IMG/VR virus record: IMGVR_UViG_3300009161_002937 | Coordinates: 1 to 23,368 of that record | From: a virus | Direction: 5' to 3' (one strand) | DNA length: 23,368 nt | In this document: positions 1 to 20,833 of the stretch, in pieces | Layout: each line of letters begins with the position of its first letter | Position numbering within the stretch: the first letter of the stretch is position 1 | Notes under the pieces: generated by a model | Database searches by the model: none | Told to the model about the DNA's origin: nothing | What the model saw: the letters and a program-made list of their open reading frames with translations, nothing else | Made by a program: the position numbers and the translations under genes

Positions 1-1236
1 CTTGAGCTTGCCAAACAAAAGAAACTAATTGAAGCACAAAAAGCAGCGGTAACTGCTGAGAATGTAAAAAATATTCGTGAATTGGAAGAATCAACAAACA
101 CCGCTTTTATAGTTTCGCTTAATGCACCTCATGCTACGGCTGAAGCTAAGAAAACAGCCTTGTCAATTGCAAACAGAGAAGCTAACACTCGTGAAGAAAA
201 AATTGCAAACTATAGAGCAGCCACTGCTTATATGAATGCACAATCTAATAGTGGTACGCCTGCTAAAGATGCTAAAGAATATTTAAAATCAACTGCCGAT
301 GAGATGTATAAACTTGGCTCATTAAATTATGAAGCTTATAGGCAGGTTAAACGTGAAATTTTTGAAGGTAATCTTACTGATGCGGATATAATTCTTAACA
401 GAAAAGATGTTGGTACTCCCGAATTTTATTTGGGAATTAAACCGGGCGATAAACCACTTCACATTGCTGTAAGTGGAAGATCGGGAACAGTACCTGGCTC
501 TCCAGACCCTGCTAACCCCGGACACTTTTTAATATTAAGTAAAACACCTAATGGGGGTGTTAAAGTTCTACGCACCATAGACGATAAAAAACGTACTTAT
601 TTAGAATCAAGCCCATCAGCTAACAGCCCGGATGAAGATATTAAAAGAACAATGAACGGTTTAAATAAGAGTTTATTTACTTCTCAAAAAAGTTCAGATG
701 GCAAAGACCTGCCTCCACGATTTCTTAAAGGTAGTGAAGGAGGAATAGATGCCCAACTACGAGAATGGAAAAACAATAGAAGGCGGCTAGATCAAGACGA
801 TGAGGTTGCGCCATATGCTACTGCAATAAATGGCTTTTTAAACATTGCAGCTAAGTCTAAAGATAAAGAAGTTAATATTGGTAAAATGCTTGATCTTGCA
901 GTTATTAACGTTGCATCATTAACTGATACAAATAAAATAACAGTAAGAGATAAACCAGATGAAGCTATTTCTGCTGCCAGAATTGGAGAGGCCGTTAAAG
1001 AGGTAACATCACCTTTTAATAATGGAAAATCTCTTAGTAGATTTAAAAACCCAACTGAATTTTTAGATGAAGTTTCTTCTAATTTTGAAAAAGATAGAGG
1101 TAAAGTAAATGTTAAAACCTTACTCTCAGGCGTAGACAATAAGAGTAGATATTATAATCTAATTAATGAAGCACCAAATGATTGGTGGGCTTACGTGTAT
1201 CGTAACCTTTATAACCTAAATAAAGAAGGAAAATAA
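1..1236 (+). CDS. Unknown probable virion protein, C-terminal part (gene enters from the left edge)
   Basis: The reading frame is open from the first base, so the true start lies outside the window; the TTG at 82 is just an internal leucine codon. The visible part is about 411 residues and ends in TAA. Its first ~90 residues are rich in Ala, Lys and Glu and look like helix or coiled coil. The rest is hydrophilic, without a membrane segment or a motif I recognise. It is followed with no gap by a large ejection-type protein and then a vRNAP-like protein, all on the same strand, so it most likely belongs to the late structural operon as an internal or tail-associated virion protein. That role rests on position only; I do not recognise the family. 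Confidence 0.75.
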   Translation, partial: LELAKQKKLIEAQKAAVTAENVKNIRELEESTNTAFIVSLNAPHATAEAKKTALSIANREANTREEKIANYRAATAYMNAQSNSGTPAKDAKEYLKSTADEMYKLGSLNYEAYRQVKREIFEGNLTDADIILNRKDVGTPEFYLGIKPGDKPLHIAVSGRSGTVPGSPDPANPGHFLILSKTPNGGVKVLRTIDDKKRTYLESSPSANSPDEDIKRTMNGLNKSLFTSQKSSDGKDLPPRFLKGSEGGIDAQLREWKNNRRRLDQDDEVAPYATAINGFLNIAAKSKDKEVNIGKMLDLAVINVASLTDTNKITVRDKPDEAISAARIGEAVKEVTSPFNNGKSLSRFKNPTEFLDEVSSNFEKDRGKVNVKTLLSGVDNKSRYYNLINEAPNDWWAYVYRNLYNLNKEGK

Positions 1237-4200
1237 ATGGAAAATTCTCCAGTAGAAAGCTTAAATTTGTTGTATCCAACCACTACTGGTGAAGAACCTA
1301 TTCTTTTTAAAGATAAAAAAGGTCAGGAAATTAGGGGCCGTCTTCATGATGCAGACACAATCATCACCGAAGCTAATGGAAACATTCGCTTTGGTGGTGG
1401 CATTGATGCGGCAGAAACCCCTAAGATAACTTCTGTTGGTGGATTTTCAGCCGGATCTCGTCTGGGTTTAGCCCAAAAAGAAGCAGTTAATCTTTTAATT
1501 AAAGAGGGAGGATACACTAATATTCCTTCTGCTTCGGACAAGCTATCTTATGGGAGGTCTGTTGCTGATTTACAACAACCAAGTGGTTCTAAACTTAGTT
1601 CTGCTTTAATAGCTAATGACATTATTCCTGCTAATGCTTGGACAACACCAGAGGATATTGAAGCAAGATCTATTACTCGTTTCCATAACGCTGTAAGAAA
1701 TTCATCAGTTGTTCGCCCTATTGATAAAGCCAGATCAATTGTGGAAGATGCCTTGCGAGGCACAGGAAGTATTTCGGCTATGCAAGCTAACACAATTGAA
1801 GAATACCAAAATTATGTAGGGGCAACAGGACATAAAGGTCTTGGACAACAAGAAGAAATGATTAAGGCTTTAGAAACACGTATTCAAAGCCCAAAAATAA
1901 ATGATAAACAAAGAGAAGCAGCAAAAGCAAAACTAGAAATTCTTCGAAGTAACTATCAGTCAAATTTAAATGCACCCCGCAATATCTACATCAGTTCTCT
2001 TGAGGGTATGAACACCACACCCAGTTATGGCAGCATGGGAGAAATGGGACGAGCATGGGACATGGGGATGGTTGCTGTTAAGGACTCTGCTGCCAACTTT
2101 CTTGATTATGCAGGTGATGTAATTAATAGCCCAGCTATTACTGAATACAGCAAAGGGTTGCTCAATAAAAATGAACGTGAACACCGCAAGATTGATTTAA
2201 AAGTTGGAGATAAAGATGTAACAGGTGGAACTCTTACAACACTAGACGATGCCATTGCGGATCCCATGAGAACGTTCCAATTTATTGGTAACTCTATTAT
2301 GCAGTATGGCCCTCAAATGGGGGTGATGGTAGCCGGTTCTGTGGCAGGGGGAGTATTAGCTGGGCCATTTGGTGCTACAATAATCCCCATGGCTATGGCT
2401 GTTGCCGATGTTTATGGAGAACAGGCTGATGATGAGAAAAACCCACTAGTTGCATCAGCTGCAGGAATAGCTATTGGCTTAGTAGATAGGTTTGGTTTTT
2501 CTAGAGGAGCAATTAAAGCTAAAGACTTGCTTACTGTTGCAGGCAGAGATAAAGTAGCTCAATATATTGCATCCAATCATATAAGTAAAAGTATTACTTT
2601 ACCTGAAGCCAAAATTCTTTTAAATTCTGGGATATCCGATTTAGGCAAGGATTATGCACGGTTAATTACTGCTTCAGCGACTAATCAATTGGCAGCTAAA
2701 AAAGGATTGTTAGATGTTTTATTTAGCATATCAAAAGCAGCCGGTAAAGAGTCAGCTACGGAGTTACTGCAAGAGGTAATGCAGTACACCGCAATAACAG
2801 AAACAAGCTCTCAAGACTTTAATTGGGAAGTGCTATATAAACGCGCAAGAGAAGCAGCGGTTGTTGGGGGTATTCTCGGAGGTGCTATGCACACTCCTTC
2901 ATCTATGTATGAAAAATCTTTATTTAACCAAGAATTAAATAATATTTCCGGAGTAGAAACACGGCAACGAACAGACGTTTCTCTTATGGAGCGTGAAGAA
3001 ATACTACGCAACAGAGGTAAGCTCAATGACGTACAACTCAGCCAACAATTAAGGGGATCTGTTGAGCCGCTAGGAAAAGATAAATACGGTAAAGATTTAC
3101 CACTATCCAGCTTTATATTGCAAGGTGACAAAGCTTCTTTGTGGGAAGATACTAAAAGCATTCTTTCTAATGGTGGAGCTTTTTCACAGGCAAGAGATAA
3201 TGCTGTTGCTCATCTTACAAAATTTATTGGCGGCAGAGAGATTGCAGGGCTACTAGATGCTAAAAGCGTTCGGGGTGTTTACTCAGGGCTATCTGCATTT
3301 AAAAGAATACATATGATTGCTAACTCAGTAACGGCGGCTTTACCTAGTAGGGCTGACAAACGGATTTTGTTTGGGACGGATAACAACAAAGATATTGGCA
3401 CTGCTCTTATGGATTCCCTTAATAACAACAGTAACCATGCTGGTGCCAAACAATTCAGAACAATTTTAGATTCTATTGGTAATGAGCTTGCAGATCACTT
3501 GGATGAACTTGGAGTTAACACTGGTTGGAGTTCTGCAGAAGTCAGGAGTCCTGATTTCTTTTTAAAGAATCAAATATTTGATCCTTTGTTAGTCCGTACG
3601 CACGAAGATGAACTAATTAAATTACTTTCTGCTCAATGGAAGAGCAATGGTTCAGTAGGATCAGCACCTAATACTTCCTACTTTAAAGACTTAGTAGCTC
3701 GCATAAAAGATAATATGAGCCATCGGGAGATTGGTGAATTAAATCAGCTGGGTGTACTTAACAACCCGGCTTTTAACAAGTTTAAATCTAAAGATGTAGA
3801 AAATAACGTTGCTCGATTGACAGAGGCGATAGCCCGTGGCTCTGTGCGTAACAGCATATTTGGCGCTAACGGAGAAGTGCTGGCCAAAGGCATTGCCAAG
3901 ATGCTGGCAGCTAACGAAATTACTGCAGGGGAAGCTTCTAAACTGGCTATCTCCCTTGAGCAACAAATGCAGTCATTTGATGGCAGACTTAATAGACCTG
4001 AGAGTGACCTTATCCGTGGTGTAAATGAAAATTTAACATTTGCATCTATGATGGTATACATGGATACGTCTTTGTTTGCTAATCTATCTGAGATAGTATT
4101 TGGGGCAATAGGATTATCTCCAAAAAACATGGTAAAATATTTTGGTCTTACTGCAAAAGAATTTGCCAAAGATCTTACTACTAAATTTACTCAACTGGGT

Positions 4201-5259
4201 AGTATGATTACTCGTGGCGGTATAAAAGCGCAAGATGAGCAAGATACCTCTGAGGCCATGCAGCTGTTGCAACAAACAGGTCATCATGGAAAAATGAATG
4301 ACATTGCTTTTAATGTGGGCGCTAATATCAGCACACAATCAAAACGTAATATGAGCAAGGTTATGTTTAAGGTTAACATGGTTGAATCTGCAACTAACGC
4401 TGCAAGAGCTGCAAGAGCTTCGTTGGCAGCAGATGAAATAAATCACCTTGTTTCTATCATAGCAGAGGTAGACACTGATAATGATATGACTCGATGGGCC
4501 AGAGATAGGCTGGCTTATTACAGAATGGATCCTGATGAGTTAGTTGATATTTATAAATCAATAGGCGGTCTTACAGAAGAAACTATAGGCGCGCTATCTC
4601 CTGCCGATCCTCTATTTGAAAGAATACGGGTCTCTCTGCGCGATGGTATTATTAATTTTATTGATGAATTTTCTTCCAGGCCAGAGCCGGGGAGTACCGC
4701 CAAAATACTTGATGATCAACGCTTTGTTTTGTTTACTCAATTTAAAAAGTTTACTTGGCATTTTTCAAGCAATGTAATGCCACAACTGTGGAATATGTAT
4801 ATGAAAAGAGGTGATGTTAAATATACGTACTCTACATTTAGCGCATTGATGATGGCATTTGCTATTGCATACGCAGGTATGTATCTTAAAGATTCCTTAC
4901 GTGGTGATGAATCAGAAAAAGATGATGAGAAAAAATTAGCTAAAAGACTGAGGCAATCTTTTGACTACACTATTGGCCAAGCTCATAGCGATGTTTTTAC
5001 TTCAACAGCTAGGCTAGTAACTGATATAGGTAGTACAGCTAGAGGAGTAGTAAGCAATCCCTTATCAACAAACCCGTTTAATCCACTTATAAACCAATCC
5101 CCCGCCCTTAATATGGCAGTCAACACAGGCAAAGACTTATATGGTATTGCGTCAAAAGAAGATGATAGTAAAGAAAAAACTAACTTAATTAAGCGTGTTC
5201 CTGTATTTGGAGAGATCCCCGGTGTAAGACATTTTTTCGAGAAGGAAAATAAACAATGA
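1237..5259 (+). CDS. Large probable ejection/internal virion protein with N-terminal SNase-like domain
   Basis: 1340 residues. ATG follows the upstream TAA directly, with AGAAGGA at 1224-1230 as ribosome-binding site. Residues ~25-140 resemble the staphylococcal nuclease (thermonuclease) fold: RLHDADT (35-41), IRFGGGIDAAET (50-61) and YGRSVADL (105-112) match the DGDT, vRLxGIDaPE and YGR signatures. Arg51, Asp57, Glu60 and Arg107 fall at the catalytic positions, but one extra Gly sits between Arg51 and Asp57. A long Gly/Ala-rich hydrophobic stretch (about 349-396) and a second one (about 1199-1217) could be membrane-active. The rest is predicted helical and unrecognised, in the style of large phage polyvalent or ejection proteins. 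It overlaps the vRNAP-like gene by ATGA. Inference: it is injected with the genome and either forms part of the DNA-translocation conduit or acts on host DNA. The virion location is inferred, not shown. Confidence 0.8.
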   Translation: MENSPVESLNLLYPTTTGEEPILFKDKKGQEIRGRLHDADTIITEANGNIRFGGGIDAAETPKITSVGGFSAGSRLGLAQKEAVNLLIKEGGYTNIPSASDKLSYGRSVADLQQPSGSKLSSALIANDIIPANAWTTPEDIEARSITRFHNAVRNSSVVRPIDKARSIVEDALRGTGSISAMQANTIEEYQNYVGATGHKGLGQQEEMIKALETRIQSPKINDKQREAAKAKLEILRSNYQSNLNAPRNIYISSLEGMNTTPSYGSMGEMGRAWDMGMVAVKDSAANFLDYAGDVINSPAITEYSKGLLNKNEREHRKIDLKVGDKDVTGGTLTTLDDAIADPMRTFQFIGNSIMQYGPQMGVMVAGSVAGGVLAGPFGATIIPMAMAVADVYGEQADDEKNPLVASAAGIAIGLVDRFGFSRGAIKAKDLLTVAGRDKVAQYIASNHISKSITLPEAKILLNSGISDLGKDYARLITASATNQLAAKKGLLDVLFSISKAAGKESATELLQEVMQYTAITETSSQDFNWEVLYKRAREAAVVGGILGGAMHTPSSMYEKSLFNQELNNISGVETRQRTDVSLMEREEILRNRGKLNDVQLSQQLRGSVEPLGKDKYGKDLPLSSFILQGDKASLWEDTKSILSNGGAFSQARDNAVAHLTKFIGGREIAGLLDAKSVRGVYSGLSAFKRIHMIANSVTAALPSRADKRILFGTDNNKDIGTALMDSLNNNSNHAGAKQFRTILDSIGNELADHLDELGVNTGWSSAEVRSPDFFLKNQIFDPLLVRTHEDELIKLLSAQWKSNGSVGSAPNTSYFKDLVARIKDNMSHREIGELNQLGVLNNPAFNKFKSKDVENNVARLTEAIARGSVRNSIFGANGEVLAKGIAKMLAANEITAGEASKLAISLEQQMQSFDGRLNRPESDLIRGVNENLTFASMMVYMDTSLFANLSEIVFGAIGLSPKNMVKYFGLTAKEFAKDLTTKFTQLGSMITRGGIKAQDEQDTSEAMQLLQQTGHHGKMNDIAFNVGANISTQSKRNMSKVMFKVNMVESATNAARAARASLAADEINHLVSIIAEVDTDNDMTRWARDRLAYYRMDPDELVDIYKSIGGLTEETIGALSPADPLFERIRVSLRDGIINFIDEFSSRPEPGSTAKILDDQRFVLFTQFKKFTWHFSSNVMPQLWNMYMKRGDVKYTYSTFSALMMAFAIAYAGMYLKDSLRGDESEKDDEKKLAKRLRQSFDYTIGQAHSDVFTSTARLVTDIGSTARGVVSNPLSTNPFNPLINQSPALNMAVNTGKDLYGIASKEDDSKEKTNLIKRVPVFGEIPGVRHFFEKENKQ

Positions 5260-8200
5260 TCAGCTTAAAAAAACCCAGCACAAGTGTTGCCGCTCCATTA
5301 TCACAGGCAGCACAGGCAGCACAGGTACCGTATTCAATAACAAATCAATATGACACGCCTGAATACACTCCTGAAGAAATTCAGAAACAATTGCAGGGGC
5401 AACCCATTAACCGATTCCCCGGCACAATGCTTGATCAGGCGCAGGGTGACGCAACATCTCGTTCTTCGTTGCCGGAGTTGCCTACTACTGGGCTGGCAAT
5501 GGTACCCTCAGAGGCAGACATTGGCCCAAGTCCCGTAGTAGGTGAGGCCCAACCTATCCCCGCTATGGATCAACGGCAAGACCGAGAGGAGCAAGGTGTT
5601 CGTCTTGCATTGCCTACAAACATCCCTAACTTTGCAGAGCCAGGTGTTGCATTAGATTCTTTAAGGCAAGCTGAGGCGCAAGTAGCACCCTCTTATGATG
5701 CTCTGGGTTATAGGTCTCATCCTAAATATGAAAAGAAAAGTCAAACAAATTTAGATATTGCAGATGCAGCAGTTGAGGCCACAGCTATTTCAAATTTAGC
5801 TAACAAAATGCAACGTACTGTGTTAGATAATGAGGGTGCATTTGCCAATGAGCAGGTACTAAACGCTCTTGCAAAAGATATGCGGCTAAATGATGATCCT
5901 AAATCAGTGAATAATATTGGATCAGTTATGTTGTTAGCTTCGGCTAGATCCGCAAGTGATATTTTATCTCGCCGGTATGCAAACATGGTAGATAACCCCG
6001 AGGGAGTACCTCAAGAAGTATCTTATGATGATCCTGAATTTTTAAACCCAGTTAACCTCAGCAAAGATCCTGCAGAGCGTAAACAAGAATATGCTGCAGC
6101 TATGGGAGATATTACCAGTCAGCCGGTGTTACAGGGCTGGATTAATGGCCTTGGTAATTCAATATCAAAGTTAGTTAGCCCTCCCGCTTCACCCGGCGGT
6201 TTTAGAGCTGAAGGAGCAGTCTCCCCATTAACTGCCAGCGCATTAGCTTACAACATGTATGACCAAGGCTTTGTTGATTTAGGGCGGGATAAACATGGAA
6301 GATACTATCCTATCCTAACTAAGACAGGCAGGGAAATGCTTGCTATCACAAACCGTGCAGCTGCAATGTATGATACGGAGTTACGGCATTTGAATGTTAA
6401 TGAGCCGATTATTCGTTCTCAAAATCTGCCACCAGTAAATAACAGGTATGCAGGTGTAGCTGCTTTGTACTCTAAAGATGGTAGGTTTATTACTACTGAA
6501 AACAATAAGGGTGAAATAGTTAGCAGCCCTAATTTAATTGAAGCAGCTGCAATGATTGTTAGTTCTACAGGAATTATGGTTAATCCTCAAAATTTGCATA
6601 TGCTGGAACAAATGTATACTGATGTAAATAAAAGTATGCAAGTATACGCTCCAAGTAATTACCCAAATGTAAAAATACCTAATGCATTTAGTACCTCCGT
6701 ATTTGCTGAATCAATTGCAGATTTATCTCAAGATTTTGTTGTTGAAAAATTTAAAGAGCTAATTGAGCAAGGGGTAAGGCCTGAAGATACTGTAAAGATT
6801 ATTATGGATATTTCCAAAAATAAACTAGATCAAATTAACAAACACTTAAAAGATTACCTTGGTGGTAATCTAAATAAAGGTGCCAGATTTACTACTGTTC
6901 AAATTTCGGATGCAACTAAACGAATGTTTCCGACAGCGACAGATATTAACACAACTAACCACTCAGGTACTATTCGCCCAGGCATGTGGTTTGCTGTGCA
7001 ACATAAAGCAAGAGTTGAAGCTAACATGCTTCAGCAAATTGGCAGGTTAAAAGATAAAGCAAGAAGCATTTACAACACCTCTAATATGAAAGGCATTGCT
7101 GTTGGCGCAAGTATTCAACGCGCATTATACGCCTTGCCCGAAGAAGAATTGGCAATGATGGGTGCTTTGTATCAGATTTCTAAGGTAGCAGAAACAATGG
7201 GCTACCATAAAGTTCCGGGTAACAGAGCAGCACCCGGAGAATACATTGCGGCAATGACCCCTGATTTGTTGAAAAGAGTTGCGGCATTTGGGCAACAAGC
7301 TCAAGGTTGGTTAAAGAATGGATTTCCTACTGCAAATGATGCTGTTACTCTACCTCCCGCATTTAAATCTCTTTCAAACCTTTTTGAAAAAAAAGAATGG
7401 GGGCCAATTCTTTCAAACTCTTTGATGGCAGCGGATATGTTAAGAGCTTCCAGTGAAGGTGGAGCATCTGTTACTATGGCTTCAACAATTGAAACAGACG
7501 CTTCCCAGTCTAACGCTATTATCATGTCGCTATTAATTGGGGATCTTAGCGTAGCTAATATGCTTGGTGTACCAGTAGGTGGTCGTGCTTTTGAAGAACT
7601 TAAATTTAACTTTAAGGATCTTCGTAATAAAGCAAGCAGCACAATTGATATGGATGTTGATGATACTTTTTCAGGTGAGTTTGAGCAAGAAAAAGCTGAT
7701 AAAATTAAATCAATGTTTGCCAGAGCTAAAGGAGAGTTAGGCGGTAGCTTTGATAAGGCGTATGCAAGAGGTATTGTTGTTGCTGGTTTGTACGGCAAAC
7801 ATGCTGATTATATGTTTACAGAAGTAAAAGATATGTTGGCTAAGCTATATTCGGTAGTTGGGCCGGAGCTGCAATATATTGAAGAGCATTTGTATAAAAA
7901 CAATAGACAAGAATTCATTGAAGACCTTAGTTCTTTGTATAGCACATCAACTAAGCGTCACCTTGCAACTTTAAAAGGTTATCAACGTGCAGCAACTGGT
8001 ATTGCTAAAGTTAAAGCAGCAGTTAATGGCAGCACTAAAGTTAAAGGCTTTATGAACACAGAAGTTGATCTTGGTATCAAACATATTGTGCCATATGATG
8101 ATGAAACAAATACTGTTCAAGATATTCTTGGCTTTAAAGAGGATGGATTTCCCTTGGCAGGGCGAGCAAATAGTTTAATGGCCCCCGGTGATTACGGCAA

Positions 8201-9080
8201 GTCTCAAGCTGATATTAGCATTGCCAAAGAACGTATTAAAGCAATCAATGCAAGTATTCCAGATATTTTGGATCAGCTAACTGACCACGCAACTTACGGA
8301 GATAAAGCCGGTAAAGCTTTACCTGTTAATTTAATTCAAAATGGTGATGCAAACTGGCTTGCTATTGTATTAACTTTTATCAACAAAGATAACAGAGACA
8401 ATAAAGGTCAACCACGAAAAGAACCAAGAAACATTTTAACAGTCCATGATGCGGGTATTACTGATCCCAGTTCTACTCTGCTTTATATTAACGCGTTTAA
8501 TAATGTTGCTCCACATATTTTAGCGGAAAACAGCACCCCTATTCTAGATAGTTTAGAACAATCTATGAAAGAAGATATTGTACGTGCTCACAAAGAAATT
8601 ACTTCAAAAGGATTTGCAGATATTGGTATGAATGGCAAGTACAAAGCTTTGAGTGGTTACTTTGACAGGATTTATAATTACAGCTTTGGAATAACACGAG
8701 AAGAACAACGAGGTAGAATTGCAGCTGATAGTGCTGCCGACAAACGGATTAAAGCTAATAAAGAGCATAGCAAATTTATTTTGGATACTGCTATGGGCTT
8801 AGGCTGGTTGCCTCCTACTGAAAGAAATTTTTCTGCAAGAACGCATAACAGAGTTACTCCAAAACAATGGGCTGATTTGCTTACGCTTATGCGCGAGGAT
8901 GTAGGTGTTGTAGAGATGACTCATTCAAAGAAGTTTTTGACTGATGCTAAATATAAATACAGTCACATCAAAGATAAGGCAGGTAGTTTATTAAATTCCC
9001 TTCGTGGTTTTAAAGTAAGCAATGCTACATTTACTCAGATGCTTAGGTCAATGTCTAACCAAATAACAAACACTAAATAA
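5256..9080 (+). CDS. N4-type virion RNA polymerase (compact single-subunit vRNAP), putative
   Basis: 1274 residues. ATG overlaps the upstream TGA (ATGA), with AGAAGGA at 5240-5246. Three motifs of single-subunit RNA polymerases occur in order. Motif A is IETDAS with Asp748 (N4 vRNAP: VEAD, Asp559). Motif B is KAYARGIVVAGLYG, with Lys834, Arg838, Tyr846 and Gly847 in the R-x3-K-x7-YG spacing of T7 (627/631/639) and N4 (666/670/678). Motif C is NILTVHDAG with Asp1065 (N4: NTLKIFDG, Asp951). Gaps A-B (98) and B-C (219) sit near the T7 and N4 values. The segment before motif C, with its NGD, also lines up with the N4 GTGDG segment as I remember it. Residues 1-150 are rich in Gln, Pro and Ala and look disordered. 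N4 vRNAP has about 3500 residues, with a ~1100-residue active core; this protein is close to that core alone. In N4 the enzyme is packaged, injected and transcribes early genes. The fourth motif (TxxGR) is not clear; Arg574 is a candidate. Odd: the motif B Arg and Lys are swapped. Confidence 0.8.
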   Translation: MISLKKPSTSVAAPLSQAAQAAQVPYSITNQYDTPEYTPEEIQKQLQGQPINRFPGTMLDQAQGDATSRSSLPELPTTGLAMVPSEADIGPSPVVGEAQPIPAMDQRQDREEQGVRLALPTNIPNFAEPGVALDSLRQAEAQVAPSYDALGYRSHPKYEKKSQTNLDIADAAVEATAISNLANKMQRTVLDNEGAFANEQVLNALAKDMRLNDDPKSVNNIGSVMLLASARSASDILSRRYANMVDNPEGVPQEVSYDDPEFLNPVNLSKDPAERKQEYAAAMGDITSQPVLQGWINGLGNSISKLVSPPASPGGFRAEGAVSPLTASALAYNMYDQGFVDLGRDKHGRYYPILTKTGREMLAITNRAAAMYDTELRHLNVNEPIIRSQNLPPVNNRYAGVAALYSKDGRFITTENNKGEIVSSPNLIEAAAMIVSSTGIMVNPQNLHMLEQMYTDVNKSMQVYAPSNYPNVKIPNAFSTSVFAESIADLSQDFVVEKFKELIEQGVRPEDTVKIIMDISKNKLDQINKHLKDYLGGNLNKGARFTTVQISDATKRMFPTATDINTTNHSGTIRPGMWFAVQHKARVEANMLQQIGRLKDKARSIYNTSNMKGIAVGASIQRALYALPEEELAMMGALYQISKVAETMGYHKVPGNRAAPGEYIAAMTPDLLKRVAAFGQQAQGWLKNGFPTANDAVTLPPAFKSLSNLFEKKEWGPILSNSLMAADMLRASSEGGASVTMASTIETDASQSNAIIMSLLIGDLSVANMLGVPVGGRAFEELKFNFKDLRNKASSTIDMDVDDTFSGEFEQEKADKIKSMFARAKGELGGSFDKAYARGIVVAGLYGKHADYMFTEVKDMLAKLYSVVGPELQYIEEHLYKNNRQEFIEDLSSLYSTSTKRHLATLKGYQRAATGIAKVKAAVNGSTKVKGFMNTEVDLGIKHIVPYDDETNTVQDILGFKEDGFPLAGRANSLMAPGDYGKSQADISIAKERIKAINASIPDILDQLTDHATYGDKAGKALPVNLIQNGDANWLAIVLTFINKDNRDNKGQPRKEPRNILTVHDAGITDPSSTLLYINAFNNVAPHILAENSTPILDSLEQSMKEDIVRAHKEITSKGFADIGMNGKYKALSGYFDRIYNYSFGITREEQRGRIAADSAADKRIKANKEHSKFILDTAMGLGWLPPTERNFSARTHNRVTPKQWADLLTLMREDVGVVEMTHSKKFLTDAKYKYSHIKDKAGSLLNSLRGFKVSNATFTQMLRSMSNQITNTK
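5302..5325 (+). repeat. Short 9-base tandem repeat inside the vRNAP-like gene
   Basis: CACAGGCAG is repeated 2.7 times and encodes QAAQAAQ in the low-complexity N-terminus of the protein. It is probably replication slippage in a disordered segment and I see no sign of other function. Confidence 0.6.
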
Positions 9081-9085
9081 ATAAA

Positions 9086-9125
9086 AACCCCCTAAGGAGT
9101 AATCCTTAAGGGGTTATTTTTTATT
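9086..9125. terminator. Bidirectional intrinsic terminator between convergent operons
   Basis: Arms at 9086-9098 and 9103-9115 pair over 13 bp with one mismatch (C9092/A9109) and a GTAA loop. On the + strand the hairpin is followed by TTATTTTTTATT. On the - strand it is followed by a T-rich run (complement of 9080-9087). It lies 5 bases after the vRNAP-like gene stop and runs into the stop of the 84-residue minus-strand gene, so it can end both transcripts. Confidence 0.9.
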
Positions 9126-9375
9126 GTTTAGCCATACTTGCTGCTACTGCTTTGGCTTCATTAAGTTTTGTTCCTGCAATAGAACGAGCTTGGCCTTCAG
9201 AAAAGCCACCTTCTTTTAGATCTTGAATGTTTTCAAGGTAAATTGCTTTACGTACAGCTTCATTTATAGCGGGGGTGTGAGCTACTTTGGGATCCAAACT
9301 GTAGCGATTTACTAGCTCAGTATCATCAATATCTAATCCTAGTTTAGCTGCGTAATTGTGATTTGTTGTAACCAT
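9121..9375 (-). CDS. Small protein of unknown function (84 aa), last gene of the minus-strand operon
   Basis: 84 residues, slightly acidic, predicted mostly helical, no Cys, no membrane segment. Its ATG overlaps the TAA of the Dps-like gene (TAATG), and AGGAG (9385-9389), inside the end of that gene, sits 9 bases upstream. Both the coupling and the strong ribosome-binding site argue that it is a real gene. It ends inside the bidirectional terminator. I do not recognise a family. Co-transcription with the Dps-like gene behind a possible promoter element at 9911-9937 suggests shared timing, not a known function. Confidence 0.8.
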   Translation of the reverse strand: MVTTNHNYAAKLGLDIDDTELVNRYSLDPKVAHTPAINEAVRKAIYLENIQDLKEGGFSEGQARSIAGTKLNEAKAVAASMAKQ

Positions 9376-9827
9376 TATTTAATACTCCTGTTTAATGTTG
9401 CTTTAACTTTCCAATTTAATTTGCCGAGGTCACGCAGGTAATCCCCTATAAAGGTGTTTAACCCTCCACATTCTGCAGAGTTTGCAAACAACCATTGGGC
9501 ATTAAGAATGAGGGTATCAAAGTCATCGCATAGTTCGGCGAACATTACTGCGCTGGTCTCATTTAGCTTCATACACTCAGTAACTTCAGAGATATCAAGG
9601 ATAGCTTTCAGAGAGCTTGGTGCTGGCTTATCCATTTGCCTGAGATGTTCACCAAGGTTATCATGTTGTTCCCACAGAAAATCATAGATCTCTTTTAGTA
9701 GTGCGTGGTCTTGAGAAAAGGTTGGGCCTTGTACATTGAAGTGGTAGCCATGTGATTTGTAGTAGACAACAAAGTTATCTGCAAACAAGTTACGGAGAGG
9801 GAAGACCAGCGGTTGTGGTTTTGCCAT
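9375..9827 (-). CDS. dps: Dps-like ferritin (DNA-binding protein from starved cells family)
   Basis: 150 residues, the usual length for a Dps subunit. HFNVQGPTF (29-37) matches the Dps HWNVKGPxF signature. His29, His41, Asp56 and Glu60 reproduce the spacing of the intersubunit ferroxidase ligands of Listeria Dps (His31, His43, Asp58, Glu62). The fifth ligand, Asp47 in Listeria, is Lys45 here. The family forms 12-subunit shells that oxidise and store iron with peroxide and often bind DNA. Here that could protect phage DNA from Fenton chemistry or hold iron (inference). There is no obvious Lys-rich DNA-binding tail at the N-terminus, although the C-terminus is basic. AAGGA lies about 8 bases before the ATG. 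It is coupled to the 84-residue gene and preceded by the 9911-9937 element. Confidence 0.82.
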   Translation of the reverse strand: MAKPQPLVFPLRNLFADNFVVYYKSHGYHFNVQGPTFSQDHALLKEIYDFLWEQHDNLGEHLRQMDKPAPSSLKAILDISEVTECMKLNETSAVMFAELCDDFDTLILNAQWLFANSAECGGLNTFIGDYLRDLGKLNWKVKATLNRSIK

Positions 9828-9910
9828 TGTTTATTTCCTTTATTTGTTGGTGTCATATAAGACTTGAGCTATTATTTACAGCTTAGAAGGCTGTTGCTTT
9901 GTCTTGACCT

Positions 9911-9937
9911 TCCTATTAGGTACCGACTAAACCAGTT
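9911..9937 (-). promoter_or_regulatory. Conserved hairpin-plus-19-mer element, copy A (candidate phage promoter or RNA-processing site)
   Basis: Read on the minus strand, a 5-position stem (AACTG/TAGTC, loop GTT, one G-T wobble and one mismatch) runs into TAGTCGGTACCTAATAGGA. Copy B at 20209-20235 shares 18 of these 19 bases. It begins one base after the stop of the thioredoxin-like gene and lies about 83 bases before the Dps-like ATG, in the longest gap of the minus-strand operon (about 110 bases). The end TAATAGGA resembles the TATAGGGA initiation region of T7-type promoters. The hairpin geometry (5 bp, 3-nt loop) recalls N4 vRNAP promoters, but the loop bases are not conserved. Role inferred. 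Confidence 0.55.
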
Positions 9938-9938
9938 A

Positions 9939-10253
9939 CTAACATTCTGGGTCAAAGTCATGCCATTCTTGGGCTTCATCTGGTTGACCATCATGCTCAT
10001 AGTCTGCTGTACCCAGCCAACTGGCATACTCTGTGACAGACATTGTTCCTGCATGTGTATTTATAATTCGATCATCTTCTTCCATAACAAAATATGGTAC
10101 GCTTTTAACTCCATATTTTATTACTTGAGCTGTCTCATCTCGGGCGTCAAGGTATTCAAGATGTACTTTAGTGTGGTCAATATCAGCCATAATTTCTTTC
10201 ATTTGTTTGCAGGGTGCGCACGTTTTAGTCGTGAACATCTTAATTGTTGTCAT
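9939..10253 (-). CDS. Thioredoxin/glutaredoxin-like protein, probable RNR reductant
   Basis: 104 residues. KMFTTKTCAPCKQM at the N-terminus carries the redox motif Cys12-Ala-Pro-Cys15, and SVPYF (about 51-55) supplies the cis-proline of the thioredoxin fold. The tail is acidic and ends in Cys104. The frame stays open far upstream into the RNR gene. I chose the ATG at 10251-10253 because it follows the RNR TGA by one base and puts CxxC at the usual position. The direct link to a class II RNR, whose C-terminus carries a CX4C relay, suggests that it re-reduces that enzyme, like NrdH or phage glutaredoxins (inference). Confidence 0.88.
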   Translation of the reverse strand: MTTIKMFTTKTCAPCKQMKEIMADIDHTKVHLEYLDARDETAQVIKYGVKSVPYFVMEEDDRIINTHAGTMSVTEYASWLGTADYEHDGQPDEAQEWHDFDPEC

Positions 10254-12132: not shown

Positions 12133-14343
12133 TTAGCAGAAGAAGTATTCGGAGTTGGTTAGATCAGCCAGATTGAGGGATCCAAGGCTGGGTTGCGGTA
12201 CGGTAAAGGTATCTTTGTGTTGCATTAAATTGTCTTGAAGGATATCAAAGAAGTTAGGAACGTCATATTGCGCCTGAAATGTAATCTTGGTAACATCTTG
12301 CAGGAAAGATACGTCTGATGCGTGACAACTGAAACTATCGTGCACAGCAGCAAAGCTACCGTTAAAGGCAACAATAGTATTAGCCATATGAGCAGCATCA
12401 TAGGAATGAACTACATTAGGGCTGATGCCGGAAGCAAAAGATCTGCGGCAAGCTACTTTATCTCCTGTTTCTTTATTGGAGATATTAACCCTGACAACGT
12501 GGGTTACTCTTCCGTCTTTGTTTCCTTGTATTCCTCGGATAGTTCCCCTTTGTTTGAATTCATGTTGCAAATAAGCTTTGTATATAACAGGAAATCCACT
12601 TGAGGTAGTCCATTCAAGTACTGTGCGGTCATTATTTAATTCGTGTTCAGCAATCTTTTGAAGGTATTTACTGGTTTTTAGTGGCCCACTACATACAATA
12701 TTAATTGCAGTAATTAAATTACCTGCCAGCAAATCACATTGATCTTGGTCTATATTGTATTTAGTTGTGTAGCCTTCAACATGGCAGTCATCATACATAT
12801 TTTTGGCAATACGTTGTTTTCCTGCTGAATATGCTCGGGTCATTGCACCACGCTTGGCAATACCTTTGCGGATAACTTTCATTGGCATTTGTCTTTCAGC
12901 AAACCAATCAGGCATAAGCATTATAAGTTCTTTGGCTACAGCCACATAAAAATCTTTTTGAATACTTGTCGGTACCAAAGACACCAGCTCACCTGCATGT
13001 TTGTCTTTAGACATAGCTGCCAGATGTTGATAGCCGTTGTTGCTGCCATCTATAGGGATAGGCAAGCCTGATTCATAAGGTAAGTCTTTAAATTCTGCCT
13101 GAACATACTTAACTATTTCATTACACACGGCTAAAAAGCTGTAAGGCTTTTCAGTTTGTTTGTCAATGATGTTGTTTGACGCAACTAAAGAGATAAGCTC
13201 CATGTTATTGTAAGCCCATGCTGCTCTATCTTTAAGTGTCATTTTATCTAGGGAGATTGTGTCCAGCCCTTCTGACTCCAGATGTTTTACATAATCAGTT
13301 GACAACCACTTTATCTTTTTTAATTGATCAATAGTATATGATTGATTACAACAGTTGGCTGCATGGATACACATCCACTTGTAGCCTTCTTCATTGACAA
13401 TTTTTTTATTATCAAACAGAAACATACTTCTGGCAAAGTCACTGCCCTGAAACTCAAGGAATGATTCGGCGTAGTACATACGACCACGATAGTCGCAGGA
13501 TATTTCCTGATAAAAAGGGTAACCTGTTTGTTTTATGAGGTCAGCTTTGCGAATAATTTGGTTGTACTCGTAGTACTTAGAAATTAATCTTTGTAATTTA
13601 GGATCTCGCTTGCCAAGGTATTTTGTGCCATCAGCGTGCGTGGTATCTTTAGGAAGCTTTGTTCCAGAATGTATATTGTAGGTAAGGATTTCCCCATCAG
13701 AGTTGACAAGTTCAATTGTGTTCTGTGGAGGATTTTGTCGGGCAGCTTCTAATACTTTTTCATTGAGACTCCAAGGTTGCTGCCTTAAAATTTCAATAGC
13801 CTTAACAAATCTTGAATCAATATGCTGAATAAATCTTTCATTGCTGTTCCAGCCTTTGATATAAGGTTCCTTGGTTATAGGGGAAATTAAACCTTTGATA
13901 GGCTGAGGCTTTTCAAAGGTAGTACCAATCAATATTGGTTTGATGCTATTAACATGCCATTTAATTTTGACCATGTAAGGCGCTTTAATCCCGTCGTATT
14001 CCCGAAAGATCTCAATAAGATTTTCTTGTAGGAATGACTCAAGCATTAAGTCACCAAGAGCCAGGGTAGATTTGATATTGCTGCTGTCAATACCCAAATG
14101 TTTTGTTAGCCTTCTGCCAATCAGATTACTGGCAAAGGTTAATTTAGCGGAGGCGCTGTGTGTTTCATTTTTATTACGGATACAGTATCTGGTCAGCACA
14201 TCCCAGGCTTCACTTACAAGCATCTCAAGGTGCTCTTCCCATTCAGGGTGTTGAGCAATAAGCAGGCATCCATGATTGTAGATCTTATCTGAGTCTAGCA
14301 CAACAGCGCTTACTCGTTCAGTTAAATATTCTACGGGGTTCAT
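12133..14343 (-). CDS. Single-chain T7-type DNA-dependent RNA polymerase
   Basis: 736 residues against 883 in T7. All catalytic motifs are present: CDYRGRMY (Arg288, DxxGR), motif A PIDGSNNGYQH (Asp432), motif B KGIAKRGAMTRAYS (Lys497, Tyr505; the usual Gly after Tyr is Ser506) and motif C VHDSF (Asp669). The end, YFFC, resembles the aromatic C-terminal foot of T7 (FAFA). It should transcribe phage middle/late genes from its own promoters. AGGA lies 6 bases before the ATG, inside the short gap after the primase-helicase stop. In N4 the comparable middle polymerase is split over two genes; here it is one chain. It is divergent from the vRNAP-like protein at 5256-9080, so the phage appears to encode two RNA polymerases of the same superfamily. 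Confidence 0.95.
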   Translation of the reverse strand: MNPVEYLTERVSAVVLDSDKIYNHGCLLIAQHPEWEEHLEMLVSEAWDVLTRYCIRNKNETHSASAKLTFASNLIGRRLTKHLGIDSSNIKSTLALGDLMLESFLQENLIEIFREYDGIKAPYMVKIKWHVNSIKPILIGTTFEKPQPIKGLISPITKEPYIKGWNSNERFIQHIDSRFVKAIEILRQQPWSLNEKVLEAARQNPPQNTIELVNSDGEILTYNIHSGTKLPKDTTHADGTKYLGKRDPKLQRLISKYYEYNQIIRKADLIKQTGYPFYQEISCDYRGRMYYAESFLEFQGSDFARSMFLFDNKKIVNEEGYKWMCIHAANCCNQSYTIDQLKKIKWLSTDYVKHLESEGLDTISLDKMTLKDRAAWAYNNMELISLVASNNIIDKQTEKPYSFLAVCNEIVKYVQAEFKDLPYESGLPIPIDGSNNGYQHLAAMSKDKHAGELVSLVPTSIQKDFYVAVAKELIMLMPDWFAERQMPMKVIRKGIAKRGAMTRAYSAGKQRIAKNMYDDCHVEGYTTKYNIDQDQCDLLAGNLITAINIVCSGPLKTSKYLQKIAEHELNNDRTVLEWTTSSGFPVIYKAYLQHEFKQRGTIRGIQGNKDGRVTHVVRVNISNKETGDKVACRRSFASGISPNVVHSYDAAHMANTIVAFNGSFAAVHDSFSCHASDVSFLQDVTKITFQAQYDVPNFFDILQDNLMQHKDTFTVPQPSLGSLNLADLTNSEYFFC

Positions 14344-15959: not shown

Positions 15960-16124
15960 TTAATTCCAATCGTTATCTTCTCGGAGTTCTCTTAATTGTT
16001 TTCTGCGGTTATGTGCTTGCTCTTTTCTGTCTTGTTTGTTTTGAAATGCTTCTCTGTTATCTGATTTTAATTCGATGTAGGATTCTTCTTGTTTTTCTTG
16101 TGGTTTTTCTTTTTGTTTTTTCAT
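15960..16124 (-). CDS. Small highly charged protein of unknown function (54 aa)
   Basis: A 54-residue frame starting ATG AAA AAA CAA. Its ATG overlaps the TGA of the GIY-YIG gene (ATGA) and its TAA lies one base before the primase-helicase ATG, so it fills exactly what would otherwise be a ~160-base gap. About half of the residues are Lys, Arg, Glu, Asp or Gln, predicted to be one long helix or coiled coil with a basic patch (HNRRKQLREL). No Cys and no membrane segment. A role as a nucleic-acid or replisome accessory protein is possible from place and charge only. The upstream ribosome-binding site is poor; translation is probably coupled. Confidence 0.7.
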   Translation of the reverse strand: MKKQKEKPQEKQEESYIELKSDNREAFQNKQDRKEQAHNRRKQLRELREDNDWN

Positions 16125-16534
16125 TTTGGTTTCAGAAATTTAACGGCTCCGATGTTCCCGTTATACCAAATACGCTCCCCGAAAGGTGTCTCATCTCTAG
16201 ATAAGACCTCACCTGCCCATTGCTCTTGGACCTCGCTATATGTAAGATCTCCGGGGCCGTTACACCATTTGTATATAACAAAAGTAAATGTTCCAGATCC
16301 GTACAGCTCAATATCATCAAGGAGTTCCCGGCAGGAGGACATATATGATCTCCATCCACTTTCTGTGCGAGTAACGATTCGCCGCTTAGATCCAGGTTTG
16401 AGTTTTTTTGTAACACTTATCAGTTGCTTTCTACCAATGTATTGTCTTCCTGTTGGGCCAAAGACAAAATAGATGAATCCAAAGGCTTCGGAGGGTCTAT
16501 CTGATAAAGCAATCCAATGTCCATAATCTTCCAT
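16121..16534 (-). CDS. GIY-YIG-type endonuclease-like protein
   Basis: 137 residues. GFIYFVF (18-24) and QYIGRKQL (about 31-38) form the GIY-YIG signature. Further on come a W-x2-YMSS segment and a Glu-containing helix (SEVQEQWAGEVL) that could hold the metal-binding Glu. Such domains cut DNA as phage resolving, recombination or homing nucleases. The gene overlaps the end of the exonuclease gene by 115 bases in another frame. The overlap is needed, because the GIY strand lies inside it and no later start would keep the domain; AGAAAGG 5 bases before the ATG supports the start. It ends in ATGA with the 54-residue gene. Whether it is an active nuclease or a mobile homing gene is open; it has the same strand and style as its neighbours. 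Confidence 0.8.
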   Translation of the reverse strand: MEDYGHWIALSDRPSEAFGFIYFVFGPTGRQYIGRKQLISVTKKLKPGSKRRIVTRTESGWRSYMSSCRELLDDIELYGSGTFTFVIYKWCNGPGDLTYSEVQEQWAGEVLSRDETPFGERIWYNGNIGAVKFLKPK

Positions 16535-17274
16535 TCCAACCTTTCTTTTAATTCTGCCAGGCTTAGAGGCCGCAAGTCATCCATGTACTCTCGCAGATAA
16601 ATGTTGTTAGCACACTTAATAAAGTTGTTTTCCCATTCACTTCCTTGTCGTTCCTTCCAGGTATCAAGGACAAGCGACAGCATCTTGCAATGGGATACCC
16701 CATCCAAGATCTTTGTTGCTGTTACTGGGCCAACCTTAGCAAGCCCCTTGATGTTATCTGTGCTGTCACCTGTCAAGATTTGTTGCATCAGCCACTCGTA
16801 GCATTTGCCCTCGTTGTTTTGGTAGAGAGTTCCTGTCTTGAAGTTGTGATGCCAACCGGGAATACAGTTAAGGTCTTTATCTATATGAGAGACTATATGG
16901 CTTTTTCCTTCTTTGACAGCCATTCTGGCCGTGATAGAACAGTAGTCATCTGCTTCTCCATCAACTGATTCCATTGCAAAAGTACGGGTATACTCAAACA
17001 AAGCGTCAATACGTTCTTGAATATCAGGTTCGACCTTATTTACTCGATGGGCTTTATATTCAGGATCTACTTTAAATCTAAAATTATTTTTACCTTTAAT
17101 AAAGATAACCCCAGACCTTGCGTTAGTTTGATTCATGATCTGGTTGATCTTAGAATCCATTTCTTTTTTACAAAGCGCAGGGGACTTCTGGGTATACGCT
17201 ATTTGATAGATAATACTATCAGCATCAATGATTGCTATATCAAAGTGCTCTTGTTCAACATTTTCAATGGACAT
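16420..17274 (-). CDS. 5'-3' exonuclease (FEN/PIN-like, T7 gp6-type)
   Basis: 284 residues from the ATG at 17272-17274. The frame has an ATG 33 bases further upstream (17307), but only the inner one has a plausible ribosome-binding site (GGAAAG, 17285-17290), and it leaves an 11-base overlap with the DNA polymerase stop. Metal-binding acidic residues are Asp17 and Asp19 (IIDADS), the GEADDY cluster, and the two Asp of TGDSTDNIKG; YKAHR is a substrate-contact motif. GLAKVGPVTATKIL is the helix-hairpin-helix of the family. It probably removes RNA primers and degrades host DNA into precursors, working with polymerase and ligase. The last 38 residues are encoded in the overlap with the GIY-YIG gene. 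Confidence 0.9.
   Translation of the reverse strand: MSIENVEQEHFDIAIIDADSIIYQIAYTQKSPALCKKEMDSKINQIMNQTNARSGVIFIKGKNNFRFKVDPEYKAHRVNKVEPDIQERIDALFEYTRTFAMESVDGEADDYCSITARMAVKEGKSHIVSHIDKDLNCIPGWHHNFKTGTLYQNNEGKCYEWLMQQILTGDSTDNIKGLAKVGPVTATKILDGVSHCKMLSLVLDTWKERQGSEWENNFIKCANNIYLREYMDDLRPLSLAELKERLEWKIMDIGLLYQIDPPKPLDSSILSLAQQEDNTLVESN
16540..16546 (-). promoter_or_regulatory. Ribosome-binding site inside the exonuclease gene for the overlapping GIY-YIG gene
   Basis: AGAAAGG on the minus strand, 5 bases before the ATG at 16532-16534. It fixes the start of the GIY-YIG protein within the upstream coding sequence and makes the long overlap credible. Confidence 0.7.
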
Positions 17275-19108
17275 CTGAGTATTTCTTTCCGATATGTGCG
17301 GCACCATTCATACATTTTATGCCGAACCATTTAGGTGCTTCTGTGAAGGCTTCTACTGCAATCTCTGCAACTTCCTCTGTATACTGATCTGGAGTTACAA
17401 CAGCAAATTCATCATGATAGTGTAATACAATGTAGTGGGGTATCTTTCTTTTGAGCAGTTCACGTTTGGCGTATACCACAGCAGCTTTGCAGGTAATGCC
17501 TTCAGCTGTCTGCAGCAGGTAATTTAGGACTTGATGTTTGGATTTGACAAAAACAATTCTACCATCTAAGCCACGGATAAATCCATTTTCTTTTCCGAAT
17601 ATTTCTTCTGTTCTTTTAAACTCATCTTCTAACTTGTCAGTTAATTGTTTCATTCCAGGAATCGAGTCTTGGAACTTCTCCTTTGCTTTGGCACCGACTT
17701 TAGCATCAGTATTGCCAGTAAGAATAGAACCAAGTTTACCAGCCCCGCCGCCAAACAGAAAAGCATAAAGGAAAGGCTTGGCAAGTTTTCTGCTGACTCC
17801 AAGAGCATCTGCGTTGCGTTGATGAACGTCTCCATTGATTACCTCATTTGTAAATGTATCATTATCAATATAGTGGCACAGACCCCGCATCTGATTGCCT
17901 GAAGAGTCAGCTCCTACTATTGATGTTCCTTGTTCGCAGACAAGTAATGATCGCATTTCTTTTCCGTAAATTGAATCAATTGATGGGATGTTTGCAACCA
18001 CTTCATGACGACATCTGAAAGTAGGAGTACCAATAGTCCACATTTTGCCGTGTAATCTTTTATCTGCTGTTGATTGTACACTTTCTATCCATCCTTTTAA
18101 TACCCCTTGTCTGGAGCGTAGTGTGTAGTATTCACTGATTGTAATAGCAGATCCACCTAACTTTTCAAGGGAACTCTCTGTTATCTTAGGTGATTTTTTC
18201 ACAAATTTTCCATTGACCTTTTCAAAGTTCCATTCATCAGGCACCCAGCCTATACTGTATAGATAATCTTTTACTACTTCGATTTGGCCTACTTTACCTT
18301 GTTCAAAAGATATGCGGGAGTATGCTCCTTCAATAGGGCGTTCCTCTTTACCTGACTCCTGAGGGTATCCGAAATGTTTTACGGTGGCAACAGTGTAGCA
18401 ACCGTCTTTACGCCATGCCGGAGATTTACTTTCAAGGCCATCTGTTCTGATGCAACGCATACCAATTAACGGTTCAAGTGTATGCTCAATAGCATGCATT
18501 TTTATTTCAAGATCGTTAAGAAGTTTAACTGCAGCTTCCATATCAAACATCCATCCTGTATGTTGGATGTCTGATTCTATCTTGGCAAACTCCATTTCAA
18601 CATCCATACCTTTGATAAATTCAGGATGCTTTTTTATAATCTTGGTTGCTTCTTCTGCCAAATGCTTATACACTTTGACATTGAGTTCTACATCTCGGAT
18701 ACAGTAGTTAAGCATATCCTTGGTGTATTTGTCCCATTCATCCCAATCAATCTTGGGAAAGCCCAGCTTAGTTCCCCAACCTGCAAGACCATGCTTGTGA
18801 TTACGTTGGTATTGAACCAGCAAAGATAAAATCCAGGTATCAATAACCTTTTGATGAGGCAGTGGATACCAGTTTTTAATTTTTGCCAGAACAACGTTAT
18901 CATACCCAATAACATTGTGACCGAAGATAATGTCTGCTGTGTGCAGGTATGCTAATCCTGCGTCTAAAGAAGGCAGGTCATTATCATGATCGGAGTAAGA
19001 AAGTATTTCACCTGTATCTGCATTGGAAATAACCAGGCACCAGATAGTATTAACCGCAGGCATTAAGCCATTGGTTTCTATATCATATCCCAGTCGTAAT
19101 TTGGTCAT
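17264..19108 (-). CDS. Family A DNA polymerase with 3'-5' proofreading domain
   Basis: 614 residues. The exonuclease domain shows GYDIETNG (Asp9, Glu11), FGHNVIGYDN and YCIRDVELNV (Exo I-III), so proofreading should be intact. Polymerase motif A is GADSSGNQMRG (Asp401), motif B RKLAKPFLYAFLFG (Arg440, Lys444, Tyr448) and motif C HYHDEF (Asp566). Tyr448 is at the position of E. coli Phe762 and T7 Tyr526. Gln406 replaces the Glu (T7 Glu480, E. coli Glu710) that forms the ribose steric gate. It is the replicative polymerase of the phage, with the primase-helicase downstream. Its ATG overlaps the TGA of the metallopeptidase-like gene (ATGA); no strong ribosome-binding site is visible, so coupling is likely. 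Confidence 0.95.
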   Translation of the reverse strand: MTKLRLGYDIETNGLMPAVNTIWCLVISNADTGEILSYSDHDNDLPSLDAGLAYLHTADIIFGHNVIGYDNVVLAKIKNWYPLPHQKVIDTWILSLLVQYQRNHKHGLAGWGTKLGFPKIDWDEWDKYTKDMLNYCIRDVELNVKVYKHLAEEATKIIKKHPEFIKGMDVEMEFAKIESDIQHTGWMFDMEAAVKLLNDLEIKMHAIEHTLEPLIGMRCIRTDGLESKSPAWRKDGCYTVATVKHFGYPQESGKEERPIEGAYSRISFEQGKVGQIEVVKDYLYSIGWVPDEWNFEKVNGKFVKKSPKITESSLEKLGGSAITISEYYTLRSRQGVLKGWIESVQSTADKRLHGKMWTIGTPTFRCRHEVVANIPSIDSIYGKEMRSLLVCEQGTSIVGADSSGNQMRGLCHYIDNDTFTNEVINGDVHQRNADALGVSRKLAKPFLYAFLFGGGAGKLGSILTGNTDAKVGAKAKEKFQDSIPGMKQLTDKLEDEFKRTEEIFGKENGFIRGLDGRIVFVKSKHQVLNYLLQTAEGITCKAAVVYAKRELLKRKIPHYIVLHYHDEFAVVTPDQYTEEVAEIAVEAFTEAPKWFGIKCMNGAAHIGKKYSDVH

Positions 19109-20208: not shown

Positions 20209-20235
20209 TCCTATTAGGTACCGGCTAGTTTAGCC
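20209..20235 (-). promoter_or_regulatory. Conserved hairpin-plus-19-mer element, copy B
   Basis: On the minus strand GGCTA-AAC-TAGCC forms a perfect 5-bp stem with a 3-base loop, continuing into CGGTACCTAATAGGA. TAGCCGGTACCTAATAGGA matches copy A (9911-9929) at 18 of 19 bases. The stem covers the last codons and the stop of the upstream GIY-YIG gene; the closing AGGA is the ribosome-binding site of the 57-residue gene. Between the copies one stem pair changes from A-T to G-C, which keeps pairing. Candidate promoter for a phage RNA polymerase, or an RNA processing or translation-control site; unproven. Confidence 0.55.
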
Positions 20236-20833
20236 TTAGATTAGTGGACATGTTGTAGTAAAAGGGTGATTGCTTTGTCTTTAGTTGCAGTAGCAGCATG
20301 GTTTCTAGTTCTAGCATGGCCTGATCAGAGCCGTAAGCAAGGATTGTTCTTATGAAACAATCTGGATTAACGGCATATTCAGCAAGCATATCCTGAGAAC
20401 TGCAGATATAACCATCGGAAATTGTTCCTTTATGTTTGCCAATATATTTTTTATCAGATTCTGTGTTAACCCACATATACACAAATGCATCTGTGTTGTC
20501 AACTTCATATGCTTTATCTGTGAAAGGCACTTCCACATTATAAGTACCTTCTAAGTGTTCTTTCCATATATCTTTGACGTAGGCAAGCATTGAATCTCCT
20601 TTGGGCGCTCTCCACAACACGATAAATGATTCTTCTCCCTCATTTGAACAAAGATAATCGTATACCCATTTGTTGTATAGACCTTTGAATGTTCGGCCCT
20701 CTGTTTTGGCTGCAATCATTTGTTTACCGGAACTAGATTCAAACGTATCTACTTCATCTACAGTGCATTTGTAAATGTCAAACAGTTTGTCTGAGCCGGT
20801 AATATTTCTCTTTACAGTTTTTAGTAGTTCCAT
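20225..20833 (-). CDS. GIY-YIG-domain protein with unknown N-terminal domain
   Basis: 202 residues. Residues ~1-110 form an unrecognised domain. Residues ~116-202 look like a GIY-YIG fold: FVYMWVN (117-123), KYIGKHKG (129-136), then a GYICSS segment, a Glu-containing helix (MLELETMLLLQL) and Asn194. The first strand reads VYM rather than GIY, and no arginine stands at the usual catalytic place soon after YIG, so nuclease activity is doubtful. It shares general layout (YIG, Y-x-SS, Glu helix) with the 16121-16534 protein and may be a distant paralogue. The ATG overlaps the ligase TAA (TAATG). The stop lies within repeat element B. Confidence 0.72.
   Translation of the reverse strand: MELLKTVKRNITGSDKLFDIYKCTVDEVDTFESSSGKQMIAAKTEGRTFKGLYNKWVYDYLCSNEGEESFIVLWRAPKGDSMLAYVKDIWKEHLEGTYNVEVPFTDKAYEVDNTDAFVYMWVNTESDKKYIGKHKGTISDGYICSSQDMLAEYAVNPDCFIRTILAYGSDQAMLELETMLLLQLKTKQSPFYYNMSTNLRLN

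Follow-up and report, generated by a model that had tools for sequence, protein, structure and literature searches.

The last gene of the structural operon in the viral record IMGVR_UViG_3300009161_002937, which was analysed over its whole length of 23,368 bases (hereafter the window), encodes a compact single-subunit RNA polymerase of 1274 amino acids (P0001). This protein is homologous to the catalytic domain of the virion RNA polymerase (vRNAP) of phage N4, and it is quite probably packaged, injected and used for the transcription of the early genes. Judging from the sequences of its relatives, this small version of an N4-related polymerase is shared by an entire group of uncultured phages. 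With rather less assurance, we also lean towards a wider picture, in which abundant and almost uncultured podovirus-like phages of ~60 kb possess a cascade of two RNA polymerases (RNAPs) that is begun by a minimal packaged and injected virion RNAP without the flanking domains of N4, and in which the enzyme of the window's clade functions with Asn rather than Gly at the sugar gate, as is unseen in the T7-like and N4 polymerases compared.

A first-pass annotation made from the letters of the window had proposed that a polymerase gene of 1274 residues closes the late operon. Indeed, the boundaries of the open reading frame (ORF) are exactly 5256-9080 on the plus strand, and P0001 is parted from the convergent genes by a hairpin flanked by A/T runs (-18.1 kcal/mol, z -3.1, for window 9078-9124). 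The gene and its features are:

5256..9080 (+): compact single-subunit RNA polymerase gene (P0001), ATG start, 1274 amino acids, last gene of the structural operon
5256..5750 (+): Pro/Gln/Ala-rich N-terminal tail of P0001, residues 1-165; predicted local distance difference test score (pLDDT) <50 for residues 130-170; the structure model starts at residue 130
7491..7517 (+): motif A, ETDASQSNA, residues 746-754; D748 aligned with N4 D559
7755..7799 (+): motif B, KAYARGIVVAGLYGK, residues 834-848; K834, R838 and Y846 aligned with N4 R666, K670 and Y678
8337..8348 (+): QNGD, residues 1028-1031; conserved Q..D segment preceding motif C (N4 GTGDG, T7 HSQD)
8442..8456 (+): motif C, VHDAG, residues 1063-1067; D1065 aligned with N4 D951; beta-hairpin turn in the model
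9081..9120 (no strand): hairpin between the convergent operons, likely a bidirectional terminator

Within the protein, IETDAS begins at residue 745, KAYARGIVVAGLYG at 834 and TVHDAG at 1062, and N753 of motif A occupies the sugar-gate position (G542 in T7, G564 in N4). A loose pattern of the three motifs, spaced as in N4 and T7, was run on P0001, on the N4 mini-vRNAP and on 20,000 shuffles of P0001. It has a single match in P0001 (748/846/1065), a single match in the N4 mini-vRNAP (559/678/951) and none in the shuffles, which agrees with the motif positions, the motif order and the N4-like spacing given at first reading; the distances are 98 (A-B) and 219 (B-C) residues in P0001 and 119 and 273 residues in N4. 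The N4 strings named there for comparison (VEAD, GTGDG and NTLKIFDG) are all present in the N4 record. A search for T/DxxGR revealed a NKGAR/SKGIR-like string that precedes a conserved SxxTxR in a part of clade I (see below), which is not kept in CRP-7 and lies in a region of low model confidence.

P0001 on its own has no match in Pfam, PHROGs or PDB, by sequence or by profile, and a search of viral contigs with the single protein gave no relatives. It was the alignment of two sequences, P0001 and its homologue from Roseobacter phage CRP-7, that opened up the family. Profile-guided scans then led to 23 loci, where the genes that are complete encode ~1230-1500 amino acids, and those loci that are long enough have the two large upstream proteins, the polymerase gene and then, convergently, a T7-like RNAP and a primase-helicase. 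In a wider search, contigs with relatives of the T7-like RNAP of the window were searched with the profile of the compact polymerase family: 17 of 24 such records match it and the other seven match the profile of the most divergent members. The two polymerases are thus paired in all 24 records examined, directly convergent in 22 of them and convergent only across contig ends in two. Relatives in bacterial and archaeal genomes were not found, and annotated relatives of P0001 and of its neighbour of 1340 amino acids occur only in CRP-7. Complete genes of the family encode 1135-1498 amino acids, so the compactness noticed at first reading is a property of the whole family and not an isolated truncation. 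The compact polymerase genes of L253 (G006) and L254 (G012) each contain one in-frame TAG, for which sequencing error, suppression and decay are all possible.

The family (45 members) splits into three clades, whose profiles can be aligned with each other (clades I and II, P 1e-57; clades I and III, P 2e-17). Clade I, to which the window and CRP-7 belong, is characterized by ExD[AS]xQSNA, K...R...LYGK, Q..D and HDA, clade II by DDGNQNG, K.PLMQ..YGK, Q..D and HDS/A, and clade III by DxNSAG, K..LLT.xYGK, QYRE and FDN. D748, Y846, Q1028, D1065 and N1083 are invariant in all members. With regard to the motif B pattern RxxxKxxxxxxxYG, spacing and Tyr are exact in the family, and a basic residue is present at position -8 in 44 of 45 members; clades II and III have the K at -8, while the basic residues of clade I are exchanged, so that K occupies position -12 and R position -8.

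The relationship to N4 vRNAP becomes apparent from profile comparisons. Clade I alone gives only P 6e-4 to 2e-3 against the vRNAPs of Schitoviridae, best at motif C, and the addition of clades II and III was therefore needed. With 38 sequences from clades I-III, an unconstrained profile alignment with N4 vRNAP extends over 405 columns (P 3.5e-5), and every motif is in register: D748 falls on D559, K834/R838/Y846 on R666/K670/Y678 and D1065 on D951. The predicted equivalence of both aspartates is hence borne out by profile alignment, not by superposition of atoms. A separate alignment with T7-like RNAPs also brings all three motifs into register. In hhalign, the profile of all 45 sequences matches the N4 vRNAP catalytic domain with Prob 94.6 and P 7e-8 (10-member N4 profile) or Prob 91.7 and P 8e-7 (71-member core N4 profile), compared to P 0.021 for T7-like RNAPs, a ranking that is partly due to profile depth (Neff 4.6-6.3 vs 3.0), P 0.009 for Pol A, over motif C only, and P 0.2-0.5 for reversed decoy profiles.

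Structure models point to the same fold class. AlphaFold 2 models were made for residues 130-1274 (pLDDT 72.6, predicted template modelling score (pTM) 0.69) and for the core, residues 532-1274 (pLDDT 76.8, pTM 0.77). A Foldseek search of PDB with the longer model resulted in 65 matches with E<=1e-3, and the best 50 of these 65 are all single-subunit RNAPs (T7, mitochondrial and N4), with T7 in first place (4.7e-9) and N4 2po4 at 3.5e-8. The best match of the core model is the N4 mini-vRNAP 2po4 (1.8e-4). The right-hand fold of single-subunit polymerases is thus recognized, with low template modelling scores (TM-scores). By fold and profile it is nearly certain that P0001 is a single-subunit RNA polymerase, and it is presumably active. 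N4 vRNAP is the favoured, though not certain, nearest known family by profile, given the greater depth of the N4 profiles and the first rank of T7 with the longer model.

The assumption of a virion role draws on the gene neighbourhood:

1..1236 (+): C-terminal 411 amino acids of a muralytic internal-virion-type protein; its relatives carry a GH108 or a pesticin/lysozyme domain
1237..5259 (+): protein of 1340 amino acids (CRP-7 gp34 family), adjoining the polymerase gene, likely an ejection protein
12133..14343 (-): T7-like single-chain RNA polymerase, 736 amino acids (Pfam RNA_pol 3.7e-51; phrog_414 4.8e-94)
17264-19108: DNA Pol A of the phage

The muralytic domain found in relatives of the first protein matches phrog_342, an internal virion protein with endolysin domain. 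P0001 is likely a virion protein, because its gene closes the structural operon and converges on the replication genes in the manner of N4 gp50, because a neighbour is of the muralytic internal-virion type, because the phage has a second RNAP of its own on the early side and because both polymerases are paired in 24 of 24 records. The position of the second RNAP and the shared promoter-like words described below would fit a cascade with the injected polymerase acting first and the T7-like enzyme after it. In such a cascade, the compact polymerase would be made late and packaged alongside the two large proteins whose genes immediately precede its own. At infection it would be injected together with both of them, one of which would open the peptidoglycan. 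Having entered the cytoplasm, it would transcribe the early genes including that of the T7-like RNAP, which would then transcribe the middle and late genes. All this would be done without the lipid-binding N-terminal domain (~1000 residues) and the autoinhibitory C-terminal domain (~1400 residues) of N4 gp50.

An active, late-expressed single-subunit RNAP might also stay unpackaged and serve late transcription or replication priming in the cell. The polymerase identity is strong, whereas packaging is derived from the gene context, and expression of the T7-like RNAP could itself be driven by a host promoter, as in T7. However, the gene directly follows those of ejection-type proteins in the records looked at, which is the position of N4 vRNAP, and a second RNAP acting only late would duplicate the role of the T7-like RNAP. 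We therefore regard an unpackaged enzyme as unlikely.

Some observations weigh against a packaged N4-like polymerase. Apart from the contribution of profile depth mentioned above, the TM-scores are low (0.30-0.37) and the pLDDT is moderate, so that the assignment of the fold leans on the motifs and on how consistently the matches agree rather than on close superposition. N4-like hairpins with a 3-nt loop are not in excess in the early regions of CRP-7 (1-10000) or L126 (1-13100). In addition, clade I has N753 in place of the sugar-gate Gly and R instead of K at position -8 of motif B, and both together may alter catalysis; the same may hold for Asn753 by itself. Five residues after the motif A Asp, all 23 members of clade I, the window included, have Asn, and the Gly expected for ribose acceptance is thus missing there; it is present in 22 clade II and clade III members. 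Since clades II and III have kept the Gly, the change to Asn was presumably derived within the family.

These substitutions in clade I, with the exchange of Lys and Arg in motif B, might also suggest a catalytically dead polymerase fold that has taken on a structural or ejection role, similar in place and size to gp16 of T7, and ejection proteins of such large size are common. However, both metal-binding Asp residues, the Tyr of motif B and, with one exception, the basic residue at -8 are kept over three deeply diverged clades, which would be unnecessary in a dead fold, and the sister clades retain the canonical Gly and Lys, which makes this explanation improbable. Even less credible is a relative of family A DNA polymerases for primer extension or repair: by eye, both motif A (DASQSNA) and the IQ..HDA segment resemble Pol A, and clade II alone matches Pol A at motif C (38 columns, P 5e-4), but this identity was rejected on profile and fold, given the far better N4 match of the whole family, the listed PDB fold matches (E<=1e-3), which are RNAPs throughout and include no DNA Pol I, and the DNA Pol A that the phage itself encodes.

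The neighbouring genes show several further features. The N-terminus of the 1340-amino-acid protein and its relatives (L004, L008, L012, L026 and CRP-7 gp34) is staphylococcal-nuclease-like by eye (RLxDADT...R..G.DA.ET), and no significant Pfam model was found for it. The leftward operon consists of a small ORF followed by genes for a ferritin-like protein, a B12-dependent ribonucleotide reductase, the T7-like RNAP, a primase-helicase, an exonuclease, DNA polymerase A, a dCMP deaminase and a ligase. The gene of the ferritin-like (Dps-type) DNA-binding protein (9375-9827, -) adjoins a glutaredoxin-like ORF and the ribonucleotide reductase gene, and two GIY-YIG/SegE-type homing endonuclease-like ORFs lie among the replication genes (16121-16534, -; 20225-20833, -). 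In CRP-7 (L001, 35552-38170), the annotation divides the B12-dependent ribonucleotide reductase into two pieces with a small ORF and non-coding gaps between them, which resembles an interruption by an intron or insert. Two candidate promoters, recognized by consensus only, are present in the window:

9911..9924 (-): first copy of GGTACCTAATAGGA, candidate phage promoter
20209..20222 (-): second copy of GGTACCTAATAGGA, likewise a candidate phage promoter

The word GGTACCTAATAGGA is repeated intergenically before gene blocks on both strands and occurs also in L126 at 10161 (-) and 14133 (+) and in L004 at 15446 (-) and 17605 (-). It is a candidate promoter of the T7-like RNAP. CRP-7 has the promoter-like word AGTCCCCTATTAAAAGGA, and TATAGTCCCCTATTAAAAGGA is repeated there before gene blocks (L001 2028 (+), 7149 (+) and 14766 (+); genome 38261 (-) and 57211 (-)), one of its places being upstream of the T7-like RNAP gene itself.

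Why N4 vRNAP (~3500 residues) has an N-terminal domain that binds membranes and a C-terminal one that is autoinhibitory, with a size that is conserved across Schitoviridae, is an open question (PMC12633501). A related polymerase in the same genomic place but without both domains would separate the needs of packaging, tail passage and early transcription from the specialities of N4. If P0001 is indeed packaged, as its gene context suggests, a compact virion polymerase could reveal how little enzyme suffices to ride in the particle and to start an infection, and with CRP-7 in culture this question is testable now. The compact family is a new branch of single-subunit RNA polymerases, with a sugar-gate residue that is unusual, and it can serve as an annotation handle for many environmental phages, in which the gene is now termed hypothetical.

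The vRNAPs of reference Schitoviridae comprise 2842-3820 amino acids with the signature ExDGxxxG (PMC10654107), and N4 gp50 contains a lipid-binding N-terminal and an autoinhibitory C-terminal domain (PMC12633501). Complete Schitoviridae-type vRNAPs gathered from IMG/VR have 3055-3941 amino acids, save one ORF of 1493 amino acids in the N4-type contig L046, which is closed at both ends and likely represents a split or frameshifted gene and not a compact form. The members of the compact family are much shorter, and P0001 corresponds to the biochemically defined N4 mini-vRNAP of 1106 amino acids (PMC4496689) plus a flexible N-terminus of ~165 amino acids. Motif A reads ExDAxxxN in P0001 (ExD[AS]xQSN in clade I) instead of ExDGxxxG, and counterparts of the N4 N- and C-terminal domains were not detected in P0001 (P 0.56 and 0.30). 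Their survival as the neighbouring 1340-amino-acid or lysozyme protein was considered and is unsupported (P 0.009 at best for the neighbours). The initial designation as N4-style vRNAP thus holds for the single-subunit RNAP fold and for N4 as favoured nearest family by profile, but not for the signature and the flanking domains, and for this reason we consider the compact polymerases a sister family, which probably functions like N4 vRNAP, and not N4 vRNAPs proper.

The likenesses to N4 gp50 (mini-vRNAP 998-2103, PDB 2PO4) comprise motifs A, B and C, which are in register within the catalytic domain, the E two residues before the motif A Asp and the D before motif C. Moreover, the gp50 gene is likewise the last structural gene, follows those of the ejection proteins gp51 and gp52 and is convergent with the replication region. 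Both polymerases are paired with a second phage RNAP, which is one chain in the window and gp15 plus gp16 in N4. Unlike in N4 gp50, a muralytic domain is found in a neighbouring gene of the window-type phages.

T7 and mitochondrial RNAPs share the fold with P0001, and the three motifs are in register with T7-like RNAPs. However, the sequence relation to T7 RNAP is weak (P 0.02), a DxxGR of canonical form was not recognized, motif A is different and the P0001 gene lies in the structural operon. The internal virion (ejection) protein gp16 of T7 is similar in size and operon place, but it is a transglycosylase whereas P0001 is a polymerase. The only cultured relative found, gp33 of CRP-7 (QBQ72826, 1235 amino acids, annotated as hypothetical protein), is a direct homologue with 24.5% identity over 93% of the query. 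For this cultured podovirus, the genome paper reports only a T7-like RNAP (ORF30) and no virion RNAP (PMC6918029); its gene order is the same as in the window, and its T7-like RNAP gene is likewise convergent.

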